The position numbers were made by a program, and so were the translations under genes. A model generated the notes under the pieces. It was not told where the DNA came from. It saw nothing but the letters and a program-made list of their open reading frames with translations, and did not search any database. From Gammaproteobacteria bacterium (GTDB lineage: Bacteria > Pseudomonadota > Gammaproteobacteria > RBG-16-57-12), in assembly GCA_021647245.1 (NCBI GenBank), contig JAKIVC010000024.1, forward strand, positions 1 through 52,593: a stretch of 52,593 bases of DNA, given 5' to 3'. Numbering within the stretch: the first letter of the stretch is position 1; each line of letters opens with the position of its first letter. Below are positions 290 through 51,899 of this stretch, one piece after another.

Positions 290-1702
290 ATGGCAAAGAA
301 ATATGATGCCGGTGTAAAAGAGTACCGCGATGTGTACTGGGCTGCGGATTATGTTCCGCTTGATACTGATCTTTTGGCATGCTTCAAAGTTACACCCCAA
401 GACGGTGTTCCTAATGAAGAGGCTGCTGCTGCTGTTGCGGCTGAGTCGTCAACAGGTACCTGGAGTACTGTATGGTCAGAGCTGTTGACTGACATGGAGT
501 TCTATAAAGGTCGTGCGTATCGCATTGAAGATGTTCCTGGTGACAAAGAGGCTTTCTACGCGTTCATCGCATATCCTCTCGATCTGTTCGAAGAGGGTTC
601 AGTTGTAAACGTATTGACTTCATTAGTAGGTAACGTATTCGGCTTTAAAGCGATTAAGTTTCTGCGTCTGGAAGATATTCGTTTCCCAATCGCATTTGTT
701 AAGACTTGCCTTGGCCCACCAAGCGGCATCCAGGTGGAGCGTGACAAGTTGAATAAATACGGCCGTCCAATGCTGGGTTGTACTATCAAACCTAAGCTGG
801 GTCTTTCTGCTAAAAACTACGGTCGTGCTGTTTATGAGTGCCTGCGTGGTGGTCTTGATCTGACTAAAGATGATGAGAACGTTAACTCTCAGCCATTCAT
901 GCGCTGGCAGAATCGTTTCGAATTCGTTGCGATGGCAGTAGAGAAAGCACAGGCAGAGACCGGTGAAGTTAAGGGTCATTATCTGAATGTTACCGCTAAT
1001 ACACCTGAAGAGATGTATGAGCGTGCTGATTTCGCTAAAGATCTAGGTCAACCCGTTATCATGCATGACTTCCTGACCGGTGGTTTCACTGCTAATGGTG
1101 GTTTGGCTGCATGGTGTCGCAAGCACGGTATTCTGCTGCACATTCATCGTGCAATGCATGCGGTAATCGATCGTAATCCTAAGCACGGTATCCACTTCCG
1201 CGTTTTGGCTAAATGTCTGCGTCTGTCAGGTGGTGATCATCTGCATACCGGTACGGTTGTTGGTAAGTTGGAAGGTGATCGTGCTTCGACGCTTGGTTAT
1301 GTTGATCTGTTGCGTGAGTCATTTGTTCCTGAAGATCGTCGTCGTGGTATTTTCTTCGACCAGGACTGGGGCTCAATGCCAGGCGTATTCGCAGTAGCTT
1401 CTGGTGGTATCCATGTATGGCACATGCCTGCACTGCTTAACATCTTTGGTGATGACTCTATCCTTCAGTTTGGTGGTGGTACTCAGGGTCACCCATGGGG
1501 TAACGCTGCAGGCGCGGCCGCTAACCGTGTTGCTTTGGAAGCGTGTGTTAAAGCGCGTAACGAAGGTCGCGAGTTGGAGAAAGAGTCAAGAGACATCATG
1601 GAGGGCGCAGCTCGTAACAGCCCAGAGCTTGCAGTTGCGATGGAGACTTGGAAAGAGATCAAGTTTGAGTTCGAAACTATGGACAAGCTGGACCTTAACT
1701 GA
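290..1702 (+). CDS. cbbL: RuBisCO large subunit, form IA (carboxysomal)
   Basis: Catalytic large subunit of ribulose-1,5-bisphosphate carboxylase/oxygenase, which fixes CO2 in the Calvin cycle and is here packed in the alpha-carboxysome. The 470-residue length is normal for form I. The active-site motif [11 protein letters not shown], with the carbamylated lysine at about residue 193, is intact, as are [10 protein letters not shown] and the C-terminal [15 protein letters not shown] loop. The frame is open from base 203, but the ATG at 290 ([17 protein letters not shown]) is preceded by AGGAG at the right distance and matches the family N-terminus. It is the first gene of the cso operon, and being followed at once by cbbS and csoS2 marks it as the carboxysomal (IAc) type. 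Confidence 0.98.
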
Positions 1703-1735
1703 GTTTGTCACGTCATCAAAGATTAGGAGAAAGTA

Positions 1736-2083
1736 ATGATTTCAAATAACACTATGGGTGATTATCGTACTACCCAGACTCTGGAAACTTTTTCTTTCCT
1801 GCCACCGCTGACGCAGCAGGAAGTTCATGACCAGATTGCTTATATGATCGCTGAAGGTTTGACCCCTGCGATTGAGCACGAGGATCCATCAAAAGCGACT
1901 AGCTACTACTGGACCATGTGGAAACTACCGTTCTTCGGTGAAAAAGATTTGAATGCGGTAGTTGCCGAGCTTGAATCTTGTCATCGTACATACCCTGATC
2001 ACCATGTACGTCTGATCGGTTATGACAGCTACACCCAAAGTCAGGGTGTCTGCTTTGTCGTATACCGTGGTAAGACGTGGTAA
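1736..2083 (+). CDS. cbbS: RuBisCO small subunit, form IA
   Basis: Small subunit that caps the L8 core to give the L8S8 holoenzyme. It has 115 residues, the usual size for form IA. Recognisable parts are [10 protein letters not shown] near the N-terminus, the [13 protein letters not shown] segment and the C-terminal [11 protein letters not shown] strand. The ATG at 1736 has an AGGAGA ribosome-binding site about 6 bases upstream. It lies 33 bases after cbbL, and the two are surely cotranscribed. An inverted repeat follows it, before csoS2. Confidence 0.97.
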
Positions 2084-2097
2084 GGCGTGGTTGATGG

Positions 2098-2137
2098 ATT
2101 GGCAGTAGTGCTAACGTGTTAGTTAGTTGCTGCCAAT
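2098..2137 (+). other. Intercistronic hairpin between cbbS and csoS2
   Basis: ATTGGCAG (2098-2105) pairs perfectly with CTGCCAAT (2130-2137). An inner CTAAC/GTTAG pair extends the fold. There is no T-run, so it looks like a processing, stability or partial attenuation element rather than a full terminator. Its position, after the highly expressed RuBisCO genes and before the scaffold gene, would suit differential transcript levels in the operon. That role is inferred. Confidence 0.5.
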
Positions 2138-2170
2138 CAGGGTTTGTCAGTAAAAGATGGGGTAATAGTA

Positions 2171-4105
2171 ATGGCCATTAAAGATTTATCAGGACGTAAT
2201 GCCGCCAAAGCCCGTCGCGATGCGCAACTTAACGGCACAGCGACACTGCCGGCTAAGGCCAGCTCGAGCACTGCTCCACGGGTTCGCCCAAAGAGAAGTG
2301 TAAGTGCTGATAGCCAGCCTTCGGTCACTGTGACAGCCAAGCCAGCTATTAGTAACGCACCTCGTGCCAAAGTGAAGACAGCGAGTGCCGGTCGTGAGGC
2401 ATCACGCGCACGCCGTCACGCGATGTCTTCTCGTGGTAAAAGTGGCGTTGCCAGTAGTGATCGTCAGCGTGTTTTGGATGTTGCGCGCACTGCTCGTAAT
2501 AGTGCTCAAGCTCAAGATTGCGGTTGTGGCTGCAAAGGTAAAGGCGATTGTGGTGATGCCAGTGTTGCGATTAATACGGCGTCAGCGGTATCGACAGCAA
2601 AAGCATCGGCAACACCACGCCGTAGTCGCCATGATGTCAAGGTGGTAACGCCGAGTAGCGCAGGTCGTATCAATTCAAAGATGCGCCGCGATGCGATGGC
2701 CGCACATGGTAAAACAGGTGTGGATAGCTTTCGTAAAGGTGTTAGTTCAGCGCAGATGGTGCGCAAACAAAACCCAGATATCACCGGTCGTGAGTTGGCG
2801 CGTACAGTGCGTACTCAGCGAAGCGCAAATGGTGGTAGTCAAAGTGCGGTGCGCTCAACAGGTCGCCGTCGTCCAGAACGCCCTGGGAAAGACGTGAGTG
2901 GTACTGTTGTATCGCACAGCGAAAAAACCACGGGTGATGAGACGGGGCTTTGTCGTTCAGTTACCGGTACAGATTACTTCTCAAGTGAGGTTTTTACTGA
3001 GTTTTGTCAAGACGAGGCGCCCAATGTGCCGCGTAAAGTCGAAGCCAGTGAGAATTTGAGTGGTGGTATGATTACCGCGAGTGGCAAGGTGGGTCTTAGT
3101 GAAAAGGTGACAGGTAATGACCGTGGTAGTTGTAATGCGGTGACCGGTATTGAGTATGTGGGTCGTGAGCAGTATGACAACTTTTGCAGCAGTAAGCCTG
3201 AGCCAGGCAGTGCAAAAGTGAGTTTTTCACAGACTACACGTGGTCAGATTGTATCGGGCTCTAAGCCGGCAAGATCAGAGCGGGTTAGTGGCAACGAAGC
3301 AGGTTCATGCGAAGTTGTTACCGGTACACCCTATACCGGTACTGAGCATTATCAAAAGTACTGTGATACGGGTGCTGTCAAGCAAGTTGAGCTGCGCACT
3401 GTGCCTCCTGCGGCGGCTAATGCCGGGCGTGATATTACCGGTGTTCAGCCTGGTATCACTAGTTTGACGGGTGCTGGCAAAGGGGTCTGTAGCGAAGTGA
3501 GTGGTACGGCATACCTTGGTGCTGAGCAGCAAGTTGCAGCTTGTGGCGTGTCACCGGCGGCAGTAAATGAACCAGACTTTCCGCAGCCATTATCTGATGC
3601 CCCTTGGGGTGCGTTCAGTGTGGTTGCTCCCGCTCAGGCGAGTCAGCCTGTTCAGGAGAGTCGACCAACAGCGAAGCCGGAGACAGTTACCGGTATGCGT
3701 TATGAGCAAGGCCGCGTGAGTGGTACTTTCTCTCTTGGTGAGGGCAAAGTTACTGGAACGGAACAGTTTCGTTTCGGTAGTCAAAAGAGTCGCAATGAGA
3801 CAGTGGCTGCCAGTGCGAAGGTTGCACCGGTGGCAGATGTCGTCTCAAAAGTGACGGGTGAAGGTCTTGATGCAGGTTTGAAAATAACCGGCAATGATTG
3901 GAACCGAGGTGATCAAGTGACAGGGACGGAGGGTAGGTCTGCGGCTAAGCGCAACCCTACACGACGAGGCCCTGTTAGTGCGATGCCTTCTTCAGAGCCT
4001 AAGCGTAATGAAGATGTTGATCGTAATGATATCAATGTTACCGGCGGAAGCGGCAGCACAGAAAGTGGTGCCTTGGTAACGCTATCAGGCGGAGCCCGAG
4101 GGTAA
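2171..4105 (+). CDS. csoS2: Carboxysome assembly scaffold CsoS2 (short form)
   Basis: Intrinsically disordered scaffold that bridges RuBisCO and the shell in alpha-carboxysomes. The N-terminal region has four RuBisCO-binding repeats (about residues 7-18, 73-92, 163-183 and 204-218) with basic SGR..ARR-type helices. The middle region (about 240-460) has about four M-repeats built on VTG pairs and spaced cysteines, for example GSCNAVTGIEY. The C-terminal region (about 500-644) keeps the VTG and GTEGRSAAKRN motifs. A Cys-rich stretch CGCGCKGKGDCG lies near residue 116. At 644 residues it is shorter than the roughly 870-residue Halothiobacillus protein as I recall it, mainly through fewer M-repeats. 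The frame is open from a TTG at 2144, but the ATG at 2171 gives the family start MAIKDLSGRNAAKARR. I found no in-frame slippery heptamer for programmed frameshifting. Confidence 0.95.
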   Translation: MAIKDLSGRNAAKARRDAQLNGTATLPAKASSSTAPRVRPKRSVSADSQPSVTVTAKPAISNAPRAKVKTASAGREASRARRHAMSSRGKSGVASSDRQRVLDVARTARNSAQAQDCGCGCKGKGDCGDASVAINTASAVSTAKASATPRRSRHDVKVVTPSSAGRINSKMRRDAMAAHGKTGVDSFRKGVSSAQMVRKQNPDITGRELARTVRTQRSANGGSQSAVRSTGRRRPERPGKDVSGTVVSHSEKTTGDETGLCRSVTGTDYFSSEVFTEFCQDEAPNVPRKVEASENLSGGMITASGKVGLSEKVTGNDRGSCNAVTGIEYVGREQYDNFCSSKPEPGSAKVSFSQTTRGQIVSGSKPARSERVSGNEAGSCEVVTGTPYTGTEHYQKYCDTGAVKQVELRTVPPAAANAGRDITGVQPGITSLTGAGKGVCSEVSGTAYLGAEQQVAACGVSPAAVNEPDFPQPLSDAPWGAFSVVAPAQASQPVQESRPTAKPETVTGMRYEQGRVSGTFSLGEGKVTGTEQFRFGSQKSRNETVAASAKVAPVADVVSKVTGEGLDAGLKITGNDWNRGDQVTGTEGRSAAKRNPTRRGPVSAMPSSEPKRNEDVDRNDINVTGGSGSTESGALVTLSGGARG

Positions 4106-4128
4106 TCGTAAAGCGATCTATAGTGTCG

Positions 4129-4167
4129 AGTGGTGAGGTGCGGTTTGTACCTTACCCCTCAACTCTT
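4129..4167 (+). other. Hairpin between csoS2 and csoSCA
   Basis: GAGT plus GTGAGG on the left pair with CCTTAC plus ACTC on the right with small bulges and one wobble. It follows the csoS2 stop and lies about 45 bases before csoSCA. Without a T-run it reads as a possible mRNA-processing or stability element. The evidence is only the fold that I can draw by eye. Confidence 0.3.
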
Positions 4168-4212
4168 AAATAAAATGATGTTTAACAAGAATTTTGGGTA
4201 GGCGGGTTGAGA

Positions 4213-5718
4213 ATGTTCAACAAAAAGACAAATAGCAGGCGTCCAATGCAACGGCAACAGCCGATGCAACGGAATGCGCGGCCCTTGGGCCACGCGGCAG
4301 CCAGTGGCGGTTTGTCGAGTAATGCACCGCACCCGTTTACCCGCAGTGCTGAAAATAGCCGTCTGTTTGCATATGAACAGCAGGTGAAGCAGGCTTTTTC
4401 AGGTATTGAACCTTTTTTGCAGCGTCTTTCTGCGATGCAGCACGAGGCTGATTTTGAAGTGCGTGCTCAACAGCTTGCGAGTAGTGAGCTTGGATTTGAA
4501 TTGCCGGTAACACTGCTGGTTGATAGCTGGATTAAACCACTGGATATTGGCCAGCTCTACACATGGTGCGTCTTTGAGACCTTCCGTGGCATGTCAGATG
4601 ATTTTTTTGATAGCAAGCCGTTGGCCGATGGTGACGATGCAGAGTTTCAGGCATTTTTAGAACAGTGTGGTTTTCACACTCTAGATGTTTCACCCTGTGC
4701 TGATGGTCGTTTGGCCCACGTTATTCGCTATGTGTTGCGCTTGCCATATAAAGCAGTTCGCCGTAAATCATATGCGGGTGCCATGTTTGATGTTGATGAT
4801 AGCTTGCAAAAGTGGAGCGAGACGGAGATGCGTCGCTACCGTGAAGGGTATCCGAATCAGGCTGACGCACCGACACGCTATCTAAAAGTTGCCGTCTATC
4901 ACCACAGTTCAAGTCAACCCGATTGTGAAGGGTGTGCAGCACATGGTAGTGATACTCAGCGAGCGGCAGATGCCGCGTTGGAGCGCCTAAAGGATTTCCG
5001 CCAAGGTGTTGAAAATAGTTTTTGCTGTGGGGCATCAATTGATTTGCTGTTGATTGGTCTGGATACGGACAATGACGTGATTCGCCTGCATCTACCCGAT
5101 GCCGATGGTGAAATAGATGCTTCGGGTTATATTGATGCGGCTGAGCTGCATCAGGCAACAAAAAATTCTTCGGCGAGCAGTGCTGAGGCGGTGGTTGGCG
5201 AGTACCTGAAAAAACAGTGTAGCTCGTTGCCCAGCGATGGCATGGTGCAGTTGGCAGCACATCTACTCTGTGGCAATTTGTCGCAAATTGATTATGTACG
5301 CCAGTACCACAATGGTTGTTACCAGGATATTGGGCATCAAGAGTGTTTCATCGGTATGGGAATCGGTTTTGAAGAGGTACAGCTGCGTAACCTGACTTAC
5401 TTCGCTTACCTGCAAACGGTAGAAGAAGGGGCTAAGGATATGGATGTGGGTATCAAAATCTTCACCGGGTTGAATGCCAATCGGGGTTTGCCGATTCCTG
5501 TGGTGATTCGCTATGACTATCACAGCCATGTGCCCGGCGCGAAAGCGCGGGCTGAGGCGCGTTGCCACCAGCTGGATACAGCACTACGCAGTCGTTTTAG
5601 TGAATACGTTGAACGTGGTCTGCTGCATACGTTGTTGATGGTGCGGGATTGCAGTAACGATGCTAAAGCAGAGACGGTTGGTAGCTCTCTAAAACTAAAT
5701 GAACAGGTAGCTCACTAG
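4213..5718 (+). CDS. csoSCA: Carboxysomal carbonic anhydrase CsoSCA (CsoS3)
   Basis: Shell-associated carbonic anhydrase (epsilon class, a divergent beta type) that converts bicarbonate to CO2 beside RuBisCO inside the carboxysome. It has 501 residues. The CADGR zinc-site motif is at Cys162, a His pair at 230/231 and cysteines at 238 and 241. Together they supply the Cys-His-Cys zinc ligands expected from the Halothiobacillus enzyme. The basic, disordered N-terminus (RRPMQRQQPMQR) resembles the RuBisCO-binding tail of the family. An in-frame TTG lies two codons upstream, but the ATG at 4213 fits MFNKKTNSRR better. Its stop shares one base with the GTG start of csoS4A. Confidence 0.95.
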   Translation: MFNKKTNSRRPMQRQQPMQRNARPLGHAAASGGLSSNAPHPFTRSAENSRLFAYEQQVKQAFSGIEPFLQRLSAMQHEADFEVRAQQLASSELGFELPVTLLVDSWIKPLDIGQLYTWCVFETFRGMSDDFFDSKPLADGDDAEFQAFLEQCGFHTLDVSPCADGRLAHVIRYVLRLPYKAVRRKSYAGAMFDVDDSLQKWSETEMRRYREGYPNQADAPTRYLKVAVYHHSSSQPDCEGCAAHGSDTQRAADAALERLKDFRQGVENSFCCGASIDLLLIGLDTDNDVIRLHLPDADGEIDASGYIDAAELHQATKNSSASSAEAVVGEYLKKQCSSLPSDGMVQLAAHLLCGNLSQIDYVRQYHNGCYQDIGHQECFIGMGIGFEEVQLRNLTYFAYLQTVEEGAKDMDVGIKIFTGLNANRGLPIPVVIRYDYHSHVPGAKARAEARCHQLDTALRSRFSEYVERGLLHTLLMVRDCSNDAKAETVGSSLKLNEQVAH

Positions 5719-5969
5719 TGAAAATTTGTAAGGTTGAAAAACCCCTGGTGGCGACAAATCGCATCCCTGGCATGGAACACAAGCATCTGCAAGTTGTGTT
5801 GGATGGAAGCACCCGTATGGTCGCTGTGGATGCGGTGGGTTGTAATCCGGGTGATTGGGTGATCTGTGTAGGCAGTTCTGCTGCTCGTGAAGCGGCTGGA
5901 AGTAAAGAGTATCCGAGTGATCTGACTATTGTTGGTATTATCGATTATTGGGGTGAGGCCGAGGACTGA
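5718..5969 (+). CDS. csoS4A: Carboxysome shell vertex pentamer CsoS4A
   Basis: BMC-P family (EutN/CcmL-like) protein that forms the pentamers closing the icosahedral vertices of the shell. It has 83 residues, the usual CsoS4A length. It opens with MKICKVEKPLVATNRIPGM, has the conserved GCNPGDWVICVGSSAAR loop and ends DLTIVGIIDYW. The start is GTG, and its G is the last base of the csoSCA stop, which implies translational coupling. It overlaps csoS4B by one base (TGATG). Confidence 0.95.
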   Translation: MKICKVEKPLVATNRIPGMEHKHLQVVLDGSTRMVAVDAVGCNPGDWVICVGSSAAREAAGSKEYPSDLTIVGIIDYWGEAED

Positions 5970-6259
5970 TGGAAATTTTGCAAGTGACGGGCTCACTGGT
6001 TTGTACTTTACGTCACCCGGGGCTTTATCAAAATAGCTTGCGGGTGTTGCGAAGCAGCAGTGGCAAGTTACAGGTTGCAGTAGATACCTGCGGTTGCCGG
6101 GATGGTAACTGGGTGTTTGTAGTGAGTGGTTCTGCCGCACGTTATGCATGTGGTGACCCGACACTGATGACTGATCTGACGATTGGTGGGATTATCGATT
6201 TTTGGGATGAAGAAACAGGACAGACGGAGCCGTCTGCCGAAGGTGGCGCTCTAAGTTAG
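5969..6259 (+). CDS. csoS4B: Carboxysome shell vertex pentamer CsoS4B
   Basis: Second BMC-P vertex protein, a paralogue of csoS4A with the same layout: VTGSLVCTLRHPG start, GCRDGNWVFVVSGSAAR loop and DLTIGGIIDFW end. It has 96 residues, with an acidic tail of about 15 residues beyond the common fold. The ATG overlaps the csoS4A stop. In characterised alpha-carboxysomes both pentamers are minor shell parts and loss of both leaks CO2. The same role is inferred here. Confidence 0.94.
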   Translation: MEILQVTGSLVCTLRHPGLYQNSLRVLRSSSGKLQVAVDTCGCRDGNWVFVVSGSAARYACGDPTLMTDLTIGGIIDFWDEETGQTEPSAEGGALS

Positions 6260-6313
6260 GGCGCGAGAATTTTAAATTAACAAGTAACGATTTACCAAGA
6301 CGGAGATAGAGCA

Positions 6314-6616
6314 ATGAGCGAAAACAATTATGGTATTGCACTGGGCATGATTGAAACACGTGGTTTGGTTCCTGCTATTGAAGCAGCAGACGCAATGACT
6401 AAGGCTGCTGAAGTACGCCTGATCGGACGTGAGTTCGTTGGCGGTGGTTACGTGACTATTCTGGTTCGTGGTGAGACTGGCGCTGTTAATGCTGCTGTCC
6501 GTGCGGGTGCTGATGCCTGTGAGCGTGTAGGCGATGGCCTAGTTGCTGCTCACATCATTGCGCGTCCACACAAAGAAGTTGAGCCTGTACTGAGCATGAG
6601 CATGAACGCTAGCTAA
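6314..6616 (+). CDS. csoS1: Carboxysome shell hexamer CsoS1 (copy 1)
   Basis: BMC-H shell protein that tiles the carboxysome facets as hexamers with a small central pore. It has 100 residues in a single BMC domain: GIALGMIETRG, the EVRLIGREFVGGGYVTILVRG strands and the HIIARPH C-terminal part. Residues 6-93 are identical to copy 2 downstream. The proteins differ only in the first five residues and the C-terminal tail (SMSMNAS here). An A/G-rich leader (AGACGGAGATAGAGCA) supplies a strong ribosome-binding site. The order matches csoS1C-csoS1A of Halothiobacillus, but I cannot say which copy is which. Confidence 0.95.
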   Translation: MSENNYGIALGMIETRGLVPAIEAADAMTKAAEVRLIGREFVGGGYVTILVRGETGAVNAAVRAGADACERVGDGLVAAHIIARPHKEVEPVLSMSMNAS

Positions 6617-6659
6617 ACCCTGTAACTTTAAATTTTTTGATTAATGAAGGAGTATCACC

Positions 6660-6953
6660 ATGGCAAATGAAACATATGGTATTGCACTGGGCATGATTGA
6701 GACCCGTGGTTTAGTTCCTGCTATCGAAGCAGCGGACGCAATGACTAAAGCGGCAGAAGTACGTCTGATCGGACGTGAGTTTGTTGGTGGCGGTTATGTG
6801 ACTATCTTGGTTCGTGGCGAAACAGGTGCTGTTAATGCGGCTGTTCGTGCAGGCGCTGATGCCTGTGAGCGTGTTGGTGATGGCCTTGTGGCAGCACACA
6901 TCATTGCACGTCCGCACAAAGAAGTTGAGCCGGTACTTGGTAGCAACAAGTAA
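6660..6953 (+). CDS. csoS1: Carboxysome shell hexamer CsoS1 (copy 2)
   Basis: Second BMC-H facet protein, 97 residues, with the same 88-residue core as copy 1 but ending GSNK. Many codons differ synonymously from copy 1, so the identity of the proteins reflects selection rather than a fresh duplication. GAAGGAG lies about 9 bases before the ATG. A long hairpin follows the gene and may set the shell mRNA level. No third csoS1B-like copy with a C-terminal extension is present. Confidence 0.95.
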   Translation: MANETYGIALGMIETRGLVPAIEAADAMTKAAEVRLIGREFVGGGYVTILVRGETGAVNAAVRAGADACERVGDGLVAAHIIARPHKEVEPVLGSNK

Positions 6954-6970
6954 AAAGGCAATACGACGAT

Positions 6971-7026
6971 GAGTCAGGGTATGACTGGAAGTTCTCCCTC
7001 TTTTTTACTCCAGTCACACCCGACTC
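6971..7026 (+). other. Long inverted repeat after the shell genes
   Basis: GAGTCAGGGTATGACTGGA (6971-6989) pairs with TCCAGTCACACCCGACTC (7009-7026), giving a stem of about 17 bp with two single mismatches. The loop contains CTCTTTTTT. On the + strand no U-run follows the stem, so it is probably a 3'-stabilising or read-through-limiting structure. It separates the abundant shell transcripts from the accessory genes downstream. Confidence 0.55.
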
Positions 7027-7056
7027 AAAATCGCTTATAGAGAGGTGTCTAACATT

Positions 7057-7500
7057 ATGACACAGGATCCAGTCGTTCTCGGATATCTGGGACGCGGACT
7101 AAGCTTTGAGTTGTCTGCGGTACAGCAGTATATGTCGCTGGCAAAGCTATTAGAGCTACGTGGTATGCCTCAGGCCGGGAAGAAGTTCCGACATGAAGCA
7201 ATGACTGAAATGGAGCATGTAGAGCGCCTGATTGGTCGAATGCTGGCTTTGGGGGTTTCGCCCAACACCAGTTGTCTAAAACGCCCGCGCCTTAACGGTG
7301 CGCTACCAGAGCTGATTAAACATATCGGTGACCTGGAGGGTGAGATTATCAATTTTTATGAACAGGCCGTGCTCTATTGCAGCCAACGCCAGGATCATGA
7401 AAACCGAATTTTTTTTGCAGCGTTGCTCAAAGATGAGCAGCAACATGCTACTGAGCTTAATAGCTGGTGGCAGAGCATCATGGAAGAGAAATCCATTTAG
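7057..7500 (+). CDS. Carboxysome-associated ferritin-like (bacterioferritin-like) protein
   Basis: Four-helix ferritin-like protein, 147 residues, of the bacterioferritin-like type often found just after the csoS1 genes. Metal-site features of the fold are visible: ELSAVQQYM in helix A, EAMTEMEHVERL in helix B, DLEGEIINFYEQAV in helix C and LLKDEQQHATEL in helix D. The frame opens at a GTG at 7045, but AGAGG overlaps that codon, so the ATG at 7057 is more likely. The role in carboxysomes (iron or redox handling) is not settled, and its place in the operon is the main clue. Confidence 0.85.
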   Translation: MTQDPVVLGYLGRGLSFELSAVQQYMSLAKLLELRGMPQAGKKFRHEAMTEMEHVERLIGRMLALGVSPNTSCLKRPRLNGALPELIKHIGDLEGEIINFYEQAVLYCSQRQDHENRIFFAALLKDEQQHATELNSWWQSIMEEKSI

Positions 7501-7535: not shown

Positions 7536-7811
7536 ATGGGCTTGAATTGGAGTTTGCGAAAAAACCCAGTACGCCTTGAATGCCGTGTTGAGTTTTCTGA
7601 TTATGATGAGACTCGTGACTTTCTTGATCGTGCTGCGGAGTTAGCGGAAAAGCAAGGATACTATCCTGATATGAGCTTTGGCCGGACTCATGTCTCAATA
7701 ACACTCAGTCCGCAGGATGACTCAGGCATTATCAGTGATGAGTTGAAAGGCTATGCCGATTTGATGGACGAGTTAGTCTCCACTGAGCAGACTGTCGACG
7801 AAACCAAGTGA
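7536..7811 (+). CDS. Alpha-carboxysome RuBisCO assembly factor acRAF (PCD-like)
   Basis: Small pterin-4a-carbinolamine dehydratase-like protein, 91 residues. In alpha-carboxysome operons this family acts as a RuBisCO assembly chaperone (acRAF) rather than as a dehydratase. The RVEFSDYDETRDFLDRAAELAEKQGYYPDMSFGRTHVSITL segment (residues about 17-57) shows the PCD fold, with an acidic tail after it. GAGGAGAGA precedes the ATG. The position between the ferritin-like and McdB-like genes is typical. No cbbQ/cbbO activase pair is in the window. Confidence 0.88.
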   Translation: MGLNWSLRKNPVRLECRVEFSDYDETRDFLDRAAELAEKQGYYPDMSFGRTHVSITLSPQDDSGIISDELKGYADLMDELVSTEQTVDETK

Positions 7812-7833: not shown

Positions 7834-8130
7834 ATGACTGTTAATGAAAAAAAAGAGGGTGGCTCAAAAAGTACCACAGTAGCCGCAAAACCGGTGGCTA
7901 CAAAATCCCCCACAGTTGCCAAGCCGCAGCCTAAAAAGGCAACTCCAACTACCCGTGCTAAGTCGAAACCATCAACAGCTACGGTTGCGCCCAAGAAACC
8001 CCAGGCAAAAAAGCCGACCCCCGCAGCGGCCAAAAAGTCGTCTGCCACAAGAACTGTTGCTCGCTCTAAGGTGCAGAGTTCAGAAAGCCCAGATTCAATG
8101 TCTATTTCTAGCCGAGTTTGGCCTGATTAA
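7834..8130 (+). CDS. McdB-like carboxysome positioning protein (no adjacent McdA)
   Basis: Disordered basic protein of 98 residues, rich in Lys, Ala, Pro and Thr, with repeated KPxxKKxT-like segments. It ends SSRVWPD. Alpha-carboxysome McdB proteins are disordered, lie at this point of cso operons and, as I recall, carry a nearly invariant tryptophan near the C-terminus. A second ORF at 51112-51264 ends RTWPD and follows an McdA-like ATPase, which supports this reading. AAAGGA precedes the ATG. The usual McdA gene is missing from this operon. The alternative is a histone-H1-like basic protein, but the WPD end argues against that. Confidence 0.68.
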   Translation: MTVNEKKEGGSKSTTVAAKPVATKSPTVAKPQPKKATPTTRAKSKPSTATVAPKKPQAKKPTPAAAKKSSATRTVARSKVQSSESPDSMSISSRVWPD

Positions 8131-8256: not shown

Positions 8257-9297
8257 ATGTCGAATCTGAGCAATTTACTGTTACCCGCAGTACTGTTTTT
8301 TGCGCTTGGTGTCATCGCTAGACTAATCAAGTCAGATCTTAAATTCCCCCCTGATCTAGCAAAGGTTCTCTCTATTTACCTGTTGATGGCGATAGGTCTA
8401 CACGGTGGTTACGAATTGGCCAAGGCCGATTTAGTGATAGCGATGAACTCCATTATGTGGGCGCTTATTTTGGGCTTTACCTTGCCAATAATTGGCTATC
8501 TGGCACTGGTGATGACACGTAAAGTTAATCCACTGGATGCCGCTGCCATCTCAGCTCATTACGGCTCAGTGAGTGCAGGCACCTTCCTTACCGCTATCGC
8601 CTATCTTGATAATGTCGGCGTAACCTACGAGACCTACCCTTTAATCATGCTGGCGGTAATGGAGTCGCCTGCGATTGTTGTGGGTTTGATTCTTGCCGCC
8701 AAAGCGCGCCATAGCATCGCTGCTCGTGAAAAAGCGCCCACCTCAGGTGGAGGTGCTGATCTTACAACTACTACTGTGGCCACTGACAGTCCGGGTGGAA
8801 AGTTTAGCGATTTACTCCGTGAGGCCTTCACCAATGGCAGTGTCGTGGTGCTGATAGGCTCCATGGTCATTGGTGCGATCTCTACTCCAAGTGGCATGCA
8901 GCAGCTTTTCCCTTTCATCGATGAGATCTTCATGGGTGTACTCTGCTTGTTCTTGTTTGATATGGGAATGGTCGCAGCACGTCGTATTGGCGACTTTCGT
9001 CAGGTCGGGTGGTTGTTGGCTTTGTTTGGGGTTGTCATGCCACTTTTTGGTGGTGTCATAGGTGCCTATGTTGGCCACGCCATTCTCGATTTCAGTGTGG
9101 GTGGCGCAACGTTGGTCGCGGTACTGGGTGCCAGTGCATCTTATATTGCGGTGCCACCCGCTATGCGGTTGGCAATACCAGAGGCTAACCCATCATTTTA
9201 TCTCACCCTCTCACTGGGAATAACCTTCCCCTTTAATGTGATAGTGGGTATACCAATTTATCACAGCTTGGTACAGGCGATGGCAGCAGCCGGTTGA
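8257..9297 (+). CDS. sbtA: Sodium-dependent bicarbonate transporter, SbtA family
   Basis: Inner-membrane permease of the SbtA (DUF897) family, 346 residues. It would take up bicarbonate with Na+ to feed the carboxysome. About ten hydrophobic segments lie in two halves, split by a polar loop (about residues 150-190) rich in Ala, Thr and Gly. Family motifs include ISAHYGSVSAGTF, MESPAIVVG and, in the second half, LGASASYIAVPPAMR. AAGGAG lies 8 bases before the ATG. It follows the McdB-like gene by 126 bases, in which I see no gene. The gene after it encodes a PII-like partner, as for cyanobacterial SbtA-SbtB. Confidence 0.93.
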   Translation: MSNLSNLLLPAVLFFALGVIARLIKSDLKFPPDLAKVLSIYLLMAIGLHGGYELAKADLVIAMNSIMWALILGFTLPIIGYLALVMTRKVNPLDAAAISAHYGSVSAGTFLTAIAYLDNVGVTYETYPLIMLAVMESPAIVVGLILAAKARHSIAAREKAPTSGGGADLTTTTVATDSPGGKFSDLLREAFTNGSVVVLIGSMVIGAISTPSGMQQLFPFIDEIFMGVLCLFLFDMGMVAARRIGDFRQVGWLLALFGVVMPLFGGVIGAYVGHAILDFSVGGATLVAVLGASASYIAVPPAMRLAIPEANPSFYLTLSLGITFPFNVIVGIPIYHSLVQAMAAAG

Positions 9298-9334: not shown

Positions 9335-9649
9335 ATGATAACGTTGTACCCTGAAAAACTGTTGAGCATCATCACCAATGACTCGATGCAGGAGCGCTTG
9401 GAGTGCATGTTCAAGAAATATGGCATTTCCGGCTTTACCGTTCTGCAAGCAACTGGGGAAGGCTCCTCAGGAATGGAGTCAGCAATGTCCGGCTTCGATG
9501 GCAATATTCTGGTAAAAGTAATTGTCACTGAGAGTCAGCTGCAAGTCCTGCTCGAGAGCGTTGAGCGTAAGCTGCGAAAAGGTTACCACCTTACGGTTTT
9601 TGTCTCTGATGTTCAGGTCATGACACCTGAAAAATTTGCGCAAAATTAA
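9335..9649 (+). CDS. PII-like regulator of SbtA (SbtB type)
   Basis: Small PII-superfamily protein of 104 residues that probably binds and gates SbtA in response to adenine nucleotides. It shows a ferredoxin-like beta-alpha-beta order and a flexible T-loop stretch, GEGSSGMESAMSGFDGN (about residues 46-62). It lacks the tyrosine-bearing T-loop of GlnB/GlnK, and no CxxC redox tail is visible. It lies 37 bases after sbtA, and its end overlaps the extended reading frame of the LysR gene. Function is inferred from pairing with sbtA. Confidence 0.83.
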   Translation: MITLYPEKLLSIITNDSMQERLECMFKKYGISGFTVLQATGEGSSGMESAMSGFDGNILVKVIVTESQLQVLLESVERKLRKGYHLTVFVSDVQVMTPEKFAQN

Positions 9650-9689
9650 AGTAGTATCAGGAGATAAAGTAGCTGGCCGGGAACAGAAG

Positions 9690-10724
9690 ATGACTGAACA
9701 GAGTGGTTCCAGATCTAAAAATGGGTTGCCAGATTACCTGATTCGCCATACAACTTTCAGGCAGATGCAAATTTTTGAAGCGGTCGCACGCTTGGGCAGT
9801 TTTACCCGAGCGGCTGAAGAGCTGTTTTTGACACAGCCGACCGTTTCGACTCAGCTTAAAAAAATGACCGATGTGATGGGGTTGCCATTACTGGATCAAT
9901 CTTCTCGCCAAATCAAGCCAACGGAGGCGGGGGAAGAGCTGTATCGTGCGGTACGGAAGATATTTGATTCCTTATCTGATCTTGATACGCGGATCGCGGC
10001 ACTCAAGGGGCTACAGCATGGTCGCTTGCGCTTAGGGGTTATCACTACTGCCAAGTATTTTGCCCCAGAGATACTGGGAGATTTCTGGCGTGAGTACCCT
10101 GGTGTGGATATCTCGCTAAAAGTGACCAACCGCAACCGTATCATTGAACGCATTCAAAATAATGAGGATGATCTCTATATTTTGGGGCAACCACCGGATA
10201 AAGAGTTTAATCTTGCGGCTTATCCATTTGCACCTAACCCGATGGTCGTGATTGCGGGAAAGGAACACCCCCTCTTTCAGGCGTCTAATATCTCCATTGA
10301 GCGCTTGTCTGAAGAGCCTTTTATCTCTCGTGAAGTTGGCTCAGGTATCCGTGATACCACTATGAAACGGTTTTCTGAGCATGGGCTTGCACCCAATATT
10401 CGCATGGACTTGGGCAGTAATGAAGCGATTAAACATGCAGTCATTGGCGGTTTAGGGGTGGCTATTCTCTCCCTACACACACTGGTGCTGGATGGGGCAG
10501 ATGGCCCATTAGGGGTGCTCGATGTTGAGGGTTTTCCCATCGAGAGGAAGTGGTATCTTGCACACCCGAAAGATAAAGAGCTCTCTCCCATGGCAAAGAC
10601 TTTTCTCGACTTTGCCAGAGCGAGTGAACCCGTTATCAGCGAGCGCATGCGGAGCTTGTATGCGCAGTTTTCTGCTCGCCACAAGAGCATGGCGATTCTA
10701 AATAATAGAGCTAAGCAGAAATAA
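9690..10724 (+). CDS. LysR-family regulator, CbbR/CmpR-like
   Basis: LysR-type transcription regulator of 344 residues. An N-terminal winged helix-turn-helix (FRQMQIFEAVARLGSF, then LFLTQPTVSTQLKKM) is followed by a two-lobed effector domain. Its place in an operon of carbon-uptake genes and its resemblance to CbbR/CmpR suggest it senses Calvin-cycle metabolites and controls sbtA or the cso genes. The frame is open from a TTG at 9636 inside sbtB, but the ATG at 9690 (MTEQSGSRSKNG) is the better start. It is transcribed with sbtA-sbtB rather than divergently from cbbL, which is less common for CbbR. Confidence 0.85.
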   Translation: MTEQSGSRSKNGLPDYLIRHTTFRQMQIFEAVARLGSFTRAAEELFLTQPTVSTQLKKMTDVMGLPLLDQSSRQIKPTEAGEELYRAVRKIFDSLSDLDTRIAALKGLQHGRLRLGVITTAKYFAPEILGDFWREYPGVDISLKVTNRNRIIERIQNNEDDLYILGQPPDKEFNLAAYPFAPNPMVVIAGKEHPLFQASNISIERLSEEPFISREVGSGIRDTTMKRFSEHGLAPNIRMDLGSNEAIKHAVIGGLGVAILSLHTLVLDGADGPLGVLDVEGFPIERKWYLAHPKDKELSPMAKTFLDFARASEPVISERMRSLYAQFSARHKSMAILNNRAKQK

Positions 10725-10756
10725 TATTTTAAATTTCGAGGCGATAGAAGCGCAAT

Positions 10757-11398
10757 ATGATCAAGTTACGAACCTACATATTTATTGATTCGCTACAGCC
10801 TCAGCTAGCCGTCTATCTTGGCACTGTTTCCCAAGGCTTCTTGCCAGTACCCGGTGATGCCTGTCTGTGGCTTGAGGTTGCGCCCGGTATGGCCGTGCAT
10901 AGACTCACCGATGTGGCGCTTAAATCTACCCGTGTCCATTTAGGCCAGCAGGTTGTTGAGCGTGCTTTCGGTTCGATGATTTTTCACCATCGTGACCAGA
11001 GTGATGTTATCGAGGCGGGCAGTGCGGTTTTAAACCTGCTTAAAACCACCGAAGATCAACGTCAAAAATGTCGTGTTGCCTGGAGTGAGGTAGTACGTTC
11101 GATTACACCTGATCACGCGGTTCTGATTAATCGTCAAGATCGTAAAGGGTCGATGATTTTGCCGGGTCAAAGTTTGTTTATTTTAGAAACCGAACCGGCT
11201 GGGTATATTGTTTATGCAGCTAATGAGGCAGAGAAAGCTGCAAATATTACACTGGTTGATTGTCGCGCAGTGGGCGCTTTTGGTCGACTTACTCTTGCGG
11301 GAAAAGAGGCTGATATTGATGCGGCGGCCCACGCTGCAGTGGCTGCTGTACAACGTCTCTCCGGTGTTGTAGCCCACGCGCAAGTTCACCATCACTAA
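10757..11398 (+). CDS. csoS1D: Tandem-BMC carboxysome shell protein CsoS1D
   Basis: BMC-T (pseudohexameric trimer) shell protein of 213 residues. Two BMC folds run about residues 1-105 and 106-208, the second with [23 protein letters not shown] and [22 protein letters not shown]. CsoS1D trimers stack to form a gated large pore for metabolites such as RuBP. Here csoS1D is parted from the main shell genes by sbtA, sbtB and the LysR gene. It ends in a His-rich tail (AQVHHH). Confidence 0.9.
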
Positions 11399-11413: not shown

Positions 11414-11480
11414 GGTTGCTTTAGGCCACTGTGGTTGACTGTTCTACCTCTCTATAAAAATCTGTAGGGCGTACGTGCAT

Positions 11481-11894
11481 ATGAATAAAGCACCACAGAA
11501 TGGACTAAAAGGCCTCAAGCATTGGCGTTACGACCTGCTGGCAGGTCTACAAGTTGCGCTGGTCTCACTGCCTCTCTCGCTGGGTATCGCTATCGCTTCG
11601 GGTGCCCCCCCGGTCACCGGTCTTATCTCCGCTATTATCGCCGGCTTTATTTTTCCTTTTTTAGGGGGCGCTTATGTCACCATTAGCGGTCCTGCGGCCG
11701 GGCTGGCTCCCGCGCTATTAGCCGGTATGCTGCTGCTGGGTGGTGGTGATCTGGCGGTGGGTTATCCGCTGTTGTTGGTGGCTATCTGCCTGACCGGTCT
11801 GTTGCAAATTATATTGGCTTTTTTAAGACAGGCCGCTACGCAATTTTCCTTCCTGTTACCGTGGTTGAGGCGATGCTCGCAGCCATTGGTCTGA
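11481..11894 (+). pseudogene. SulP-family transporter, 5' part (frameshifted)
   Basis: N-terminal part of a SulP-family anion permease. It reads MNKAPQNGLKGLKHWRYD, then the first hydrophobic segments (LSLGIAIASGAPPVTGLISAIIAGF and the GGAYVTISGPAAGLAPALLAG region). SulP proteins beside carboxysome loci in sulfur oxidisers can move bicarbonate. The frame is lost at a run of six T near 11819-11824. One more T would continue as FKTGRYAIFLPVTVVEAML, the proper SulP sequence. Codons after about 11824 to the stop at 11894 are out of frame. A GTG at 11475 is an alternative start. Confidence 0.8.
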
Positions 11895-12537
11895 TGATTA
11901 TTATCAAACAGATACCCTCTTTGATGGGCGCCGTTTCGCCCGCATCACAAAGCATGTTGGAGACAATCAGTAAACTACCTTTGGCGCTTCCTCAGCTGGA
12001 GTGGAGTATCTTCTTTATTGGTGCTCTGAGCCTATTCTTGATGTTTTATCTGAATGCCTCGCGTCACGACTGGATGCGTAAAATCCCACCGCCGTTATTT
12101 GTTGCCTGTCTTGGTATCGGCTTGGGTTATCTTTTCAATCTTGATGGTCGATTTTTGATTACTATGCCGGAAAATCTACTGGAAGGTGGGATTACATTCC
12201 CCGCTTTTGACGAGGTATTGAACCGCCCTGAGTTGTGGTGGAGTGTATTACTGGTGGTAATTACGCTGACGCTGATTGATGGCGTTGAATCACTGGCAAC
12301 TATCAAGGCGGTAGATAAAATTGACCCTTTTCAGCGTAAGTCAGATGCCAATATTACCTTGCGCACCATGGGCATCTCCAATTCACTCTCCAGCATTTTT
12401 GGTGGCTTAACGATCATCCCAGGTGGTGTCAAAAGCCGCGTTAATATCGATGCTGGCGGGCGTACATTGTGGGCAAATTTTTATAACGCCATTTTTCTGC
12501 TTATTTTCCTGTTTGTGGCTATCGATGTGATTGCTAG
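11861..12537 (+). pseudogene. SulP-family transporter, middle part (cut by an insertion sequence)
   Basis: Continuation of the SulP permease in the +1 frame. The homologous frame is already in place from about 11826 (GRYAIFLPVTVVEAMLAAIG). The transmembrane core shows LTLIDGVESLATIKAVDKI and the signature SSIFGGLTIIPGGVKSRVN. The gene is cut at CTAG (12534-12537) by the insertion sequence. The open frame runs on to 12574 only by reading into the element. Rejoining at the second CTAG gives DVIARVPLAAIAAILIYVG without a gap. Confidence 0.8.
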
Positions 12538-14123
12538 CAGCCTGTCGGGCTTGCGCCTGACAGGCACCTTTTAAAATGATTGTGCGCGCCAGCATGTTTT
12601 TTGGCCGTTGACGACCTCCAGAATGGCCTGTTCGGATTCATGCAGGCCGTCTTTCGGCCCTTGTGTACCGATTAAAGGGCAAATGACCCTCACAGTGCCA
12701 TTCTCAGCACATTCATGCGCTTCACATTCCACGCTAGGGTCGCTAACGTCCATTCGCCCGTCACCTTGTCCAGACCTCGCATCGAGAACTGCCGCAACCC
12801 CATCACCTGTTTGATGATGCCGAACACCGGTTCCACTGTTTGCTTTCTCAATGCGTACAGGGCTCGCCCTGATTCGGTTTTCAGTTGATGCTTCATCAGC
12901 GCCACCGGATCTTCCGTTTTTGGCGTTGGGTCGTCAGGGGCAAATCGGTCAAACACAGATAGATTGTGATGGTCTCGTGCCACGGCCAGTGAGGGCTGGA
13001 TGTTGTCCCCTAAACACGCCTTTACATTCGCCTCGCTAAAATACCCTGTATCAGCCAGCAGGTCAGTTACCGTGCCCAACGCTTCGGGCAGAGAACATAG
13101 CTTGGTCAGGGCGGGTGCTATCTGTTGTTTGTCATTTGTCGCCTGCGTCATGTGTGAACTGACAACAAGCATCGTATCGACGTCCACACTGGCCTGTGCG
13201 TTGTAGCACTGTTCGAAGCCGCCACCGGACACCGGCATAATGCGTGATTCTTCATCGGTTAAATTTACCTGGTCTTTATCCCGAGGGCCGGGAAGCGGTG
13301 GCTTAGGCTCCCGACCCCGGGGTTTTTTTCCTGTGTCCCTCTGAGCCTGCCGTTTGGCTTGTTTTTCCTGATATTCGGCCTGTTCACGTTCAAAACGTTC
13401 TTGCGCCCGCGCCTCTATCTTCCTTTTCGCCTCAGCCAAGACTTTGAGCCGTGTTTCGCGCCGGGAAATCTCCGCGGGAACGTCCATGCCATCCGCCACA
13501 GGCGTTTGATCTGCCGCTTCCGCCTGTGCAGTGAGAGCGCTAACTTCTGCTTTGAGTTGCGCTTCGATTTTTTTCGCGTGCGCGTAGGAAAGCGCCTTAT
13601 GTTTGCTGGCGTTCGCTTTTACTTTGGTGCCATCCAGAGCGATCCGCCCCAGCTTCATGAGCTTCATCTCACGCGCCAACAGCAGGACCTGAACAAACAA
13701 AGCTTCAAGCTGGGGTAAAAACCGGCGGCGAAACGTGGCTATCGTGTCGTGATCCGGGTGCGTATTAGCCGCCAGATAGCGAAATGCAATCGAGTCGTGG
13801 GTGGCGCGCTCAATCTTGCGGCTGGAGAAAACGCCGGTGGCGTAACCGTAGATCAGCAAACTGAGCAGTACGCCTGGATGATGGGCCGGTGAGCCTCGTC
13901 CCGCATACTGCCGAGTAAGTTCAGACAGGTCGAGTTGGTCAACCACTTCGACGACAAAGCGTGCCATGTGATCTTCAGGAAGCCAATCCTGCATAGAGGG
14001 AGGAAACAAATAGTCTGTCTCTCGATCAGCAGTTATAAAATTCCCCATCACTTTGCTCCTATCTCTCCCAGCGTGGCCATCATTATCTCACTTCGATACA
14101 ATTAGGTTAAGTCCGACAGGCTG
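12538..14123. mobile_element. Complete IS1182-family-like insertion sequence, 1586 bp
   Basis: The left end CAGCCTGTCGGGCTT (12538-12552) and the inverse complement of the right end (14109-14123, CAGCCTGTCGGACTT) agree at 14 of 15 bases. CTAG flanks both sides (12534-12537 and 14124-14127) as a target duplication of a palindromic site. Removing the element plus one CTAG restores the sulP frame exactly. One intact transposase gene fills most of it on the minus strand, so the insertion is probably recent. Confidence 0.92.
12690..14051 (-). CDS. Transposase, IS1182-family-like (DDE)
   Basis: DDE transposase of 453 residues that catalyses movement of the element around it. The N-terminal half has a DUF772-like domain (FPPSMQDWLPEDHMARFVVE, HHPGVLLSLLIYGYATGVFSSRKIE). 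A charged, Lys/Glu-rich coiled segment runs from about 165 to 260. The C-terminal catalytic region has SGGGFEQCYNAQASVD, LLADTGYFSEANV with a catalytic Asp, and QTVEPVFGIIKQ with the Glu. There is no internal stop. The family name is from recognition and was not checked by search. Confidence 0.88.
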   Translation of the reverse strand: MMGNFITADRETDYLFPPSMQDWLPEDHMARFVVEVVDQLDLSELTRQYAGRGSPAHHPGVLLSLLIYGYATGVFSSRKIERATHDSIAFRYLAANTHPDHDTIATFRRRFLPQLEALFVQVLLLAREMKLMKLGRIALDGTKVKANASKHKALSYAHAKKIEAQLKAEVSALTAQAEAADQTPVADGMDVPAEISRRETRLKVLAEAKRKIEARAQERFEREQAEYQEKQAKRQAQRDTGKKPRGREPKPPLPGPRDKDQVNLTDEESRIMPVSGGGFEQCYNAQASVDVDTMLVVSSHMTQATNDKQQIAPALTKLCSLPEALGTVTDLLADTGYFSEANVKACLGDNIQPSLAVARDHHNLSVFDRFAPDDPTPKTEDPVALMKHQLKTESGRALYALRKQTVEPVFGIIKQVMGLRQFSMRGLDKVTGEWTLATLAWNVKRMNVLRMAL

Positions 14124-16140: not shown

Positions 16141-16938
16141 TTGAACATATGGGCGGTTGCCAATCAGAAGGGGGGGGTGGGTAAAACAACCAGCACTGTC
16201 TCCCTGGCAGGGCTCCTTTCCGCCAAGGGGTACCGCACCTTGGTGGTTGACATGGACCCCCACGGCTCGTTAACAGTCTATTTTGGACATGACCCGGATA
16301 CTATAGAGATGAGTGTCTACTCGCTGTTTCAAGTGCCTAATATTGCCACCAGCGATATGCCTAGGCGCGTGATAAAACAGACACGTTTTGAAGGTCTTGA
16401 TCTACTGCCCGCCTCGACGGCTATGGCAACACTTGACCGCCAATTGGGAACACAGGATGGTAAAGGGCTGGTGCTGCTTAGGGCGCTACAACAGTTGGCT
16501 GACAGCTATGACTATGTTTTGATCGACTGCCCACCGATTTTAGGGGTTTTGATGGTTAATGCCATGGCAGCCTGTCAGAGCTTGTTGATTCCGGTGCAGA
16601 CGGAGTTTTTGGCGCTTAAGGGGTTAGAGAGAATGATGCGTACTACCGCGATGATTACACGAGCACGCAGAGCCCCGCTGGGGTTACACATCGTTCCCAC
16701 TATGTTTGATCGACGCACCCGCGCTTCTCATGAGGCACTCAAGCAGCTACAAAAAGATTACCCTGAGCAGCTATGGGACGCCGTGATACCCATCGATACC
16801 CAGTTTCGTGAAGCGAGCCGCAAAGGGGTGCCGCTACCCATTATGCGAGCAAATAGCCGAGGCTCAATTGCTTATCGTGAGCTATTGACCTGGCTGCAGA
16901 ATATCTATCCAGCTGACAGCAGAACAGCCGAGTCGTGA
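16141..16938 (+). CDS. ParA-family ATPase, ParC-like (chemotaxis array positioning)
   Basis: ParA/MinD-type P-loop ATPase of 265 residues. The deviant Walker A KGGVGKTTS is at about residues 10-18, with DMDPHGSLT (switch I) and VLIDCPPILG (Walker B). Its place before a CheW-domain ParP-like gene, cheW and DUF2802 marks it as the ParC type, which sets chemoreceptor arrays at the pole. The start is TTG, with GAGGGGG about 5 bases before it; no ATG is in frame. It overlaps the next gene by 4 bases. It is not the McdA of this genome, which is better placed at 51267-51899. Confidence 0.85.
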   Translation: MNIWAVANQKGGVGKTTSTVSLAGLLSAKGYRTLVVDMDPHGSLTVYFGHDPDTIEMSVYSLFQVPNIATSDMPRRVIKQTRFEGLDLLPASTAMATLDRQLGTQDGKGLVLLRALQQLADSYDYVLIDCPPILGVLMVNAMAACQSLLIPVQTEFLALKGLERMMRTTAMITRARRAPLGLHIVPTMFDRRTRASHEALKQLQKDYPEQLWDAVIPIDTQFREASRKGVPLPIMRANSRGSIAYRELLTWLQNIYPADSRTAES

Positions 16939-51111: not shown

Positions 51112-51264
51112 CTAATCCGGCCAGGTACGCTTGGAGGGCAGTGGTGGCGGTGTTGCCTCTGGTGTGGCGGGTTGGGTTGTTGCCGTGGTTTTTCTTTTTT
51201 TCGGCTCTGCTTGTTGTGTTTTGATCTGACGCACACTATTGGCCAGTTTGTCTTGTAGCTTCAT
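51112..51264 (-). CDS. Short McdB-like protein (50 residues) paired with McdA
   Basis: Small ORF below the usual length cut-off. It reads MKLQDKLANSVRQIKTQQAE, a Lys/Thr/Pro-rich middle, then PPPLPSKRTWPD. It begins 2 bases after the stop of the ParA-type gene, in the order McdA then McdB. Its last five residues R-T-W-P-D match R-V-W-P-D at the end of the 98-residue protein in the carboxysome operon (7834-8130). Both are basic and disordered. I infer that it is the adaptor that recruits the ATPase to carboxysomes. A conserved tryptophan near the C-terminus is known of alpha-McdB as I recall. Confidence 0.72.
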   Translation of the reverse strand: MKLQDKLANSVRQIKTQQAEPKKRKTTATTQPATPEATPPPLPSKRTWPD

Positions 51265-51266
51265 GG

Positions 51267-51899
51267 TTATAAAAGCTCCTCTATGATGGATTCAATTTCC
51301 TGGGCGGCAGCCTTGCCTTGTTTGCCAAGGCAGAAGACGCTGGCACCTTCAATGGCGGAGGTTCGGTAAATTGCGCGGCGGCGCAAGCCCCTCTTGAGTG
51401 AGGGTATGTCGAACTCATCCAGTGCTTGTTGCATTGCGCGGGAGAGCGCACTGCGTGGCTCTTGCTGATTGATGACCAAATAGGCCTGTAGCTTGGGGTT
51501 GCCCAGTTTAGCCTGCTCTACGGTATCGGCCAGTCGCACGCTAGCCCACAGATCTATGGGGGAGGGTAGAACGGGTATCAGCAAAGTGTTGGCGGCCTGC
51601 ATCGCGTGCCTGACGGTTTCGCCCTCAAGGGTAGGAGGGCAGTCGATGACAATGTATTGATAGTCTTGGCGAAAGCGGTTGATTTCGTGAGCCAAATTGC
51701 CCGCAATGGAGATGACAGAGACCGGGAAGGGGCGGTTTTCGGGGGCCAGTCCGGTCCACTGTCCTGCTGATCTTTGTGGGTCGGCATCGATAATAAGGGT
51801 GCGGCCACGTTGTGCCAATCCGGCGGCAAAGTTCATGCTTAGGGTTGTTTTTCCGGTACCCCCTTTTTGATTGGAAATTGAAAATACTTTTGCGGACAT
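51267..51899 (-). CDS. ParA-type ATPase, McdA-like (carboxysome positioning)
   Basis: ParA/MinD-superfamily ATPase of 210 residues, the short form usual for McdA and orphan ParAs. The deviant Walker A is SNQKGGTGKTTLSMNF (about residues 8-23), the switch region IIDADPQRSAGQW and Walker B YIVIDCPPTLEG; a basic C-terminal helix could bind DNA. It is paired with the McdB-like ORF directly downstream. The pair probably spreads carboxysomes over the nucleoid. It is about 43 kb from the cso operon. An unrelated plasmid-type ParA is less likely because no parB follows. Confidence 0.78.
   Translation of the reverse strand: MSAKVFSISNQKGGTGKTTLSMNFAAGLAQRGRTLIIDADPQRSAGQWTGLAPENRPFPVSVISIAGNLAHEINRFRQDYQYIVIDCPPTLEGETVRHAMQAANTLLIPVLPSPIDLWASVRLADTVEQAKLGNPKLQAYLVINQQEPRSALSRAMQQALDEFDIPSLKRGLRRRAIYRTSAIEGASVFCLGKQGKAAAQEIESIIEELL

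Follow-up and report, generated by a model that had tools for sequence, protein, structure and literature searches.

An orphan McdB in an alpha-carboxysome operon keeps the WPD tail and lacks the N-terminal helix of McdBs that adjoin McdA

Introduction

Why should an alpha-carboxysome (cso) operon carry a gene for an McdB adaptor with no gene for the ATPase McdA beside it, when a second mcdB lies next to an mcdA elsewhere in the same genome? This question is raised by the gammaproteobacterial contig sequence of 52,593 nucleotides analyzed here in full (the window). The arrangement as such has a name: a 2021 review (PMC8262871; system of MacCready and co-workers, 2021) describes as alpha-McdAB type 2 those systems in which an orphan alpha-McdB without the charged N-terminus is encoded in the cso operon and mcdAB is found elsewhere, and it calls the need for two distinct alpha-McdBs undetermined. 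A 2026 review (PMC12918739) restates the extra McdB and calls its function open, but locates it outside that operon region. We found no experimental study of any type 2 McdB in the literature. The two ends of a type 1 protein have been mapped in Halothiobacillus neapolitanus, where the last 10 residues of McdB are sufficient for carboxysome association, the tail consensus of alpha-McdBs being R(V/I)WPD (PMC11321042), and where the first 20 residues are both necessary and sufficient for McdA binding, such that removal of residues 2–20 phenocopies deletion (PMC12204374).

Results

The orphan gene and its surroundings

The features at the carboxysome end of the window are as follows.

290–7,500, forward strand: cso operon with a complete alpha-carboxysome set (cbbL, cbbS, csoS2, csoSCA, csoS4A, csoS4B, two csoS1 genes and a bacterioferritin-like gene)
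7,536–7,811, forward strand: acRAF (Pterin_4a fold), the last conserved cso-operon gene ahead of the orphan mcdB (mcdB2)
7,834–8,130, forward strand: orphan McdB (alpha-McdB type 2), 98 aa, ATG start, rich in K, S, A, T and P, net charge +16, tail SSRVWPD
8,257–9,297, forward strand: SbtA-type Na+/bicarbonate transporter, the next gene downstream

The orphan reading frame starts after a gap of 22 bp from the end of acRAF, and in the window no mcdA is present between the end of acRAF (7,811) and the start of sbtA (8,257). A first-pass annotation of this DNA had reported an McdB-like gene, unaccompanied by mcdA, at the place usually held by mcdA-mcdB after acRAF, and the layout of open reading frames bears this out. 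The encoded protein ends in SMSISSRVWPD and thus carries the invariant C-terminal tryptophan of alpha-McdBs within R(V/I)WPD; K, S, A, T and P make up 71 of its 98 residues, which is the biased composition with low hydrophobicity expected of an alpha-McdB, and judged from this composition the protein looks disordered. No Pfam family rose above its cut-off for either this protein or the 50-aa McdB encoded elsewhere in the window, and a promoter and terminator scan around the orphan gene returned nothing above chance. A resemblance to the histone H1-like family Hc2 was weak and sub-threshold (E 0.15; 12 bits, with the cut-off at 135), and the retained RVWPD tail together with the position after acRAF led us to reject an unrelated histone-like protein.

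Further downstream of sbtA (9,335–11,398) lie a P-II family gene (SbtB-like), a LysR regulator gene and a gene for a 213-aa protein with a single BMC domain (CsoS1D-like). Next to the carboxysome genes, a SulP-family anion transporter gene is broken in the window (11,475–12,574 and 12,538–14,121; frameshift pieces of 139 aa and 237 aa), with a DDE transposase inserted in it (12,690–14,051, reverse strand); the transporter is intact (about 755 aa) in both congeners, L010 and L011.

One McdA and two McdBs in the genome

Three further features of the window bear on the question of which ATPase the adaptors could serve.

16,144 to about 16,941: a second ParA-family ATPase, 265 aa, not McdA-like
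51,112–51,264, reverse strand: alpha-McdB type 1 (McdB1), 50 aa, N-terminal helix MKLQDKLANSVRQIKTQQ, tail KRTWPD
51,267–51,899, reverse strand: McdA, ParA-family ATPase, 210 aa, with KGGTGKTT; the only McdA of the genome

The McdA gene and the gene of the 50-aa McdB are separated by 2 bp, and the pair is situated on the same contig as the orphan at a distance of about 43 kb. The genome as a whole, 2.57 Mb in size and 99.46% complete, holds one McdA and two McdBs. When it was searched with McdA, the query found itself at E 7e-137, and all other matches, no better than E 6.5e-9, were other ParA/MinD proteins; the second mcdA with a partner of its own that the first-pass annotation had envisaged was not found by this search. 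The same annotation counted a single ATPase in the window, which is right for McdA but overlooks the ParA-family protein at 16,144 (E 7e-7 versus 7e-137 for the true McdA). Its two adaptors, of 98 and 50 residues and each with an R-x-W-P-D tail, are both real. R-x-W-P-D followed by a stop codon occurs only four times in the genome, three times in frame, and two of these occurrences are the 98-aa and 50-aa genes, which are unlikely to be chance matches because the pattern is so rare in frame across 2.57 Mb. The third in-frame occurrence was rejected as a further McdB, since its frame is just 14 codons long, and the fourth falls inside a long gene.

Distribution of orphan and in-operon McdBs

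An acRAF search of the genome collection yielded 19 loci, and in all 19 an open reading frame ending in RVWPD lies directly 3' of acRAF with no mcdA between the two. In 13 of these 19 genomes a close McdA is encoded elsewhere or further down the contig. In 12 of the 13 this McdA is complete and directly followed by an McdB with the N-terminal helix; the McdA of the remaining genome is divided between two contigs. A class-wide sample of 370 genomes, 76 of which have CsoS2, provided 73 cso loci outside the window's genus, whose arrangement was counted by hand. The mcdA-mcdB pair is within the cso locus in 41 of the 73 and an orphan mcdB stands alone after acRAF in 17; two have neither arrangement directly after acRAF, and in the remaining 13 the sequence is cut before that point.

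When 29 genomes with mcdAB in the operon were scanned for the pattern, a probable contaminant was the only convincing candidate for a second McdB. It would have made G130 an in-between genome with two mcdAB pairs; its extra pair (L230, G130:C56) is on a 4.1-kb contig and the McdB is identical to that of G061, so that contamination is likely. Additional RVWPD or RIWPD matches were dismissed as not McdB-like in G160 and G268 and as having no McdB-length frame in G054. Two genomes of family f50 (G352, locus L111; G071, locus L187) show yet another layout. No orphan follows acRAF in either; an ATPase that resembles McdA but has diverged strongly (E about 1e-20) precedes a WPD-tailed McdB in which the usual N-terminal helix is missing, and this pair is found after sbtA or some 40 kb away.

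The N-terminal helix is lost and the tail is kept

Among distinct sequences, the N-terminal helix (of the KLANSVRQxK type; K-L-x-x-S-x-R) was recognized in 72 of 74 McdBs that adjoin an McdA versus none of 33 orphans, the two exceptions being the very divergent f50 McdBs (L111 and L187); two loci in which McdA is cut by the contig end (L041 and L146) were allowed for in the final sorting into McdB1s and orphans. Given that this motif expression had been fitted after the sequences were viewed, the comparison was repeated with a profile trained only on in-operon McdB1s. With training windows still chosen by a similar expression, and with sequences whose shared ancestry makes p-values purely descriptive, 29 of 30 held-out McdB1s scored at least 11.8 and the top orphan 3.1, and in the window itself McdB1 scored 18.5 versus −5.8 for the orphan. 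An N-terminus without charge, as in the type 2 description, is not literally true of the window orphan, which has a few charged residues (EKKE) near that end; the helix motif is absent.

The other end of the protein behaves in the opposite way: all 33 orphans terminate in [RK]VWPD (RVWPD in 32, KVWPD in one), which also argues against the unrelated DNA-binding tail protein that the first-pass annotation had allowed for. Two orphans (L082 in G125 and L085 in G229) have tail-like segments, D-[AV]-[FY]-Q...RV, repeated ahead of the final RVWPD, as if the putative carboxysome-binding end had been multiplied.

Read together with the domain mapping in H. neapolitanus, this comparison of motif and tail suggests that the orphans retain the cargo end of McdB and lack its motor end. 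This bears on two proposals made earlier for this locus. The WPD tails had been taken as the part that would bind the ATPase, which runs contrary to the published work, where the N-terminus binds the ATPase and the tail binds the carboxysome. Likewise, two adaptors competing for one ATPase now appear unlikely, because the end predicted to bind the ATPase is missing from every orphan; the other half of that proposal, namely that the adaptors serve different steps, is the more plausible one.

Orphans in genomes without a detectable McdA

With the window and its two congeners added to the 17 of the class sample, there are 20 orphan-bearing genomes, and 14 of them encode an McdA elsewhere. This would be in keeping with the orphan as a second McdA partner, contacting McdA by some other segment or via McdB1 and thereby competing with or reinforcing it. 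The absence from all 33 orphans of the helix found in H. neapolitanus to be both required and sufficient for McdA binding speaks against such a partner, as do orphans that persist where McdA was not found, and we regard it as very unlikely.

McdA was not detected in six of the 20 genomes: G125, G229, G200 and G281 (each 99% complete), G202 (97%) and G121 (94%). G125 and G229, of lineage f104, belong to one genus and agree with each other; G281 is from f50 and G202 from f66. The best ParA matches in the six were no stronger than about E 2e-18, no WPD reading frame followed those matches where the neighboring DNA was read, and the other WPD-stop matches, as read out, were not McdB-like. These genomes are drafts, and an McdA that has diverged to the extent seen in f50 could have gone unnoticed, which makes the absence likely, not certain; still, they hint at a role of the orphan that is independent of McdA.

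One such role would be that of a tether: the disordered, lysine-rich body would attach directly to DNA or another surface and the tail to the carboxysome, resulting in a crude nucleoid association. It would suit these six genomes, the weak Hc2 resemblance described above and the positive net charge, which is +16 for the window protein and above zero in all 33 orphans. That charge, however, spans +2 to +25, a range that overlaps with that of McdB1s (0 to +20), and we consider a tether unlikely.

Evolution and selection

In the McdA phylogeny, the proteins from orphan-bearing genomes occupy two places: a group of 19 (one undetermined row; support 95) and the pair G317 and G238, which sits within the in-operon group. 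On a tree of six cso genes the orphan and in-operon states interleave and require five changes, at least four of which are forced by well-supported branches, with such counts being unable to tell gain from loss. The orphan state is therefore scattered over several cso lineages.

The interleaving of states would also be expected if the orphan were the decaying leftover of an earlier in-operon mcdB, without an important function once mcdA was lost. A possible relict of the helix motif (SIRKT in the G121 orphan) fits this, as does the relaxed constraint seen between the window and L010, where single pairwise estimates on short genes gave dN/dS of 0.34 for the orphan, compared with 0.07 for McdB1 and 0.13 for acRAF; low conservation outside the tail, too, would fit a protein with little function. 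Decay is at odds, however, with a dN/dS below 1 and with the finding that every sampled orphan, in several lineages, has retained its reading frame, its place in the operon and the RVWPD tail; it is the least probable of the accounts weighed here. Because dN/dS is 0.34, the orphan gene is constrained, albeit loosely and less than McdB1, a pattern one would expect of a protein whose tail is fixed and whose body is disordered.

Discussion

The first-pass annotation had regarded the layout of this locus as not previously described. It is in fact a clean example of alpha-McdAB type 2 (PMC8262871): the 98-aa protein is encoded in the cso operon without an adjoining mcdA, a separate pair of mcdA and type 1 mcdB is present at a distance, and the McdA-interacting N-terminus is missing from a disordered protein with a C-terminal tryptophan. 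We found no difference from type 2 in the window itself. With the type 1 McdB of H. neapolitanus the protein shares the R(V/I)WPD carboxysome-binding tail, the disorder and the biased composition, but it is neither directly downstream of mcdA nor equipped with the N-terminal helix. The beta-McdBs of cyanobacteria, for which a coiled coil is predicted (PMC8262871), are likewise disordered with a C-terminal tryptophan, whereas a glutamine-rich region is absent from the 98-aa protein, which belongs to an alpha-carboxysome operon.

We think it probable that the 98-aa protein acts as a type 2 alpha-McdB that coats the carboxysome without recruiting McdA directly, thereby tuning the pull of McdA and carboxysome clumping, with the 50-aa McdB1 as the ATPase partner. 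The cso operon itself would make a disordered, basic carboxysome adaptor whose RVWPD tail, judging by its conservation and by the H. neapolitanus experiments, docks on the carboxysome. Since the protein has no counterpart of the helix by which McdB binds McdA and releases it from DNA, it is not expected to recruit McdA alone, and McdB1 as the sole ATPase partner forms part of what we see as the best explanation. Most likely, the orphan would coat the carboxysome in step with shell synthesis and share or limit the tail-docking sites used by McdB1; the occupancy of these sites could then set both the pull of McdA on each carboxysome and the stickiness of the carboxysome. Alternatively, it may space carboxysomes as well as coat them. 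By analogy with H. neapolitanus, then, the two adaptors would most likely share or compete for the carboxysome, not for the ATPase.

More tentatively, and with somewhat less than even confidence, we suggest that type 2 McdBs in general may be McdA-independent adaptors, and that the orphan state may have arisen several times from in-operon mcdAB, always with loss of the ATPase-binding helix and retention of the tail, leaving the orphan as the sole Mcd protein in some lineages. We found no mention of orphan-bearing genomes without McdA, or of repeated changes of state, in the published reviews; the primary 2021 alpha-McdAB paper (Mol Microbiol; PMC8359340) was outside that search. If this suggestion is correct, these bacteria would manage their carboxysomes by means of an adaptor in the absence of a positioning ATPase. 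The near-complete orphan-bearing genomes without a detectable McdA offer natural cases in which a tail-only adaptor can be studied alone. The comparison of the two ends of the protein turns the puzzle posed by type 2 systems into a direct prediction, namely that the orphan should bind carboxysomes and not McdA.
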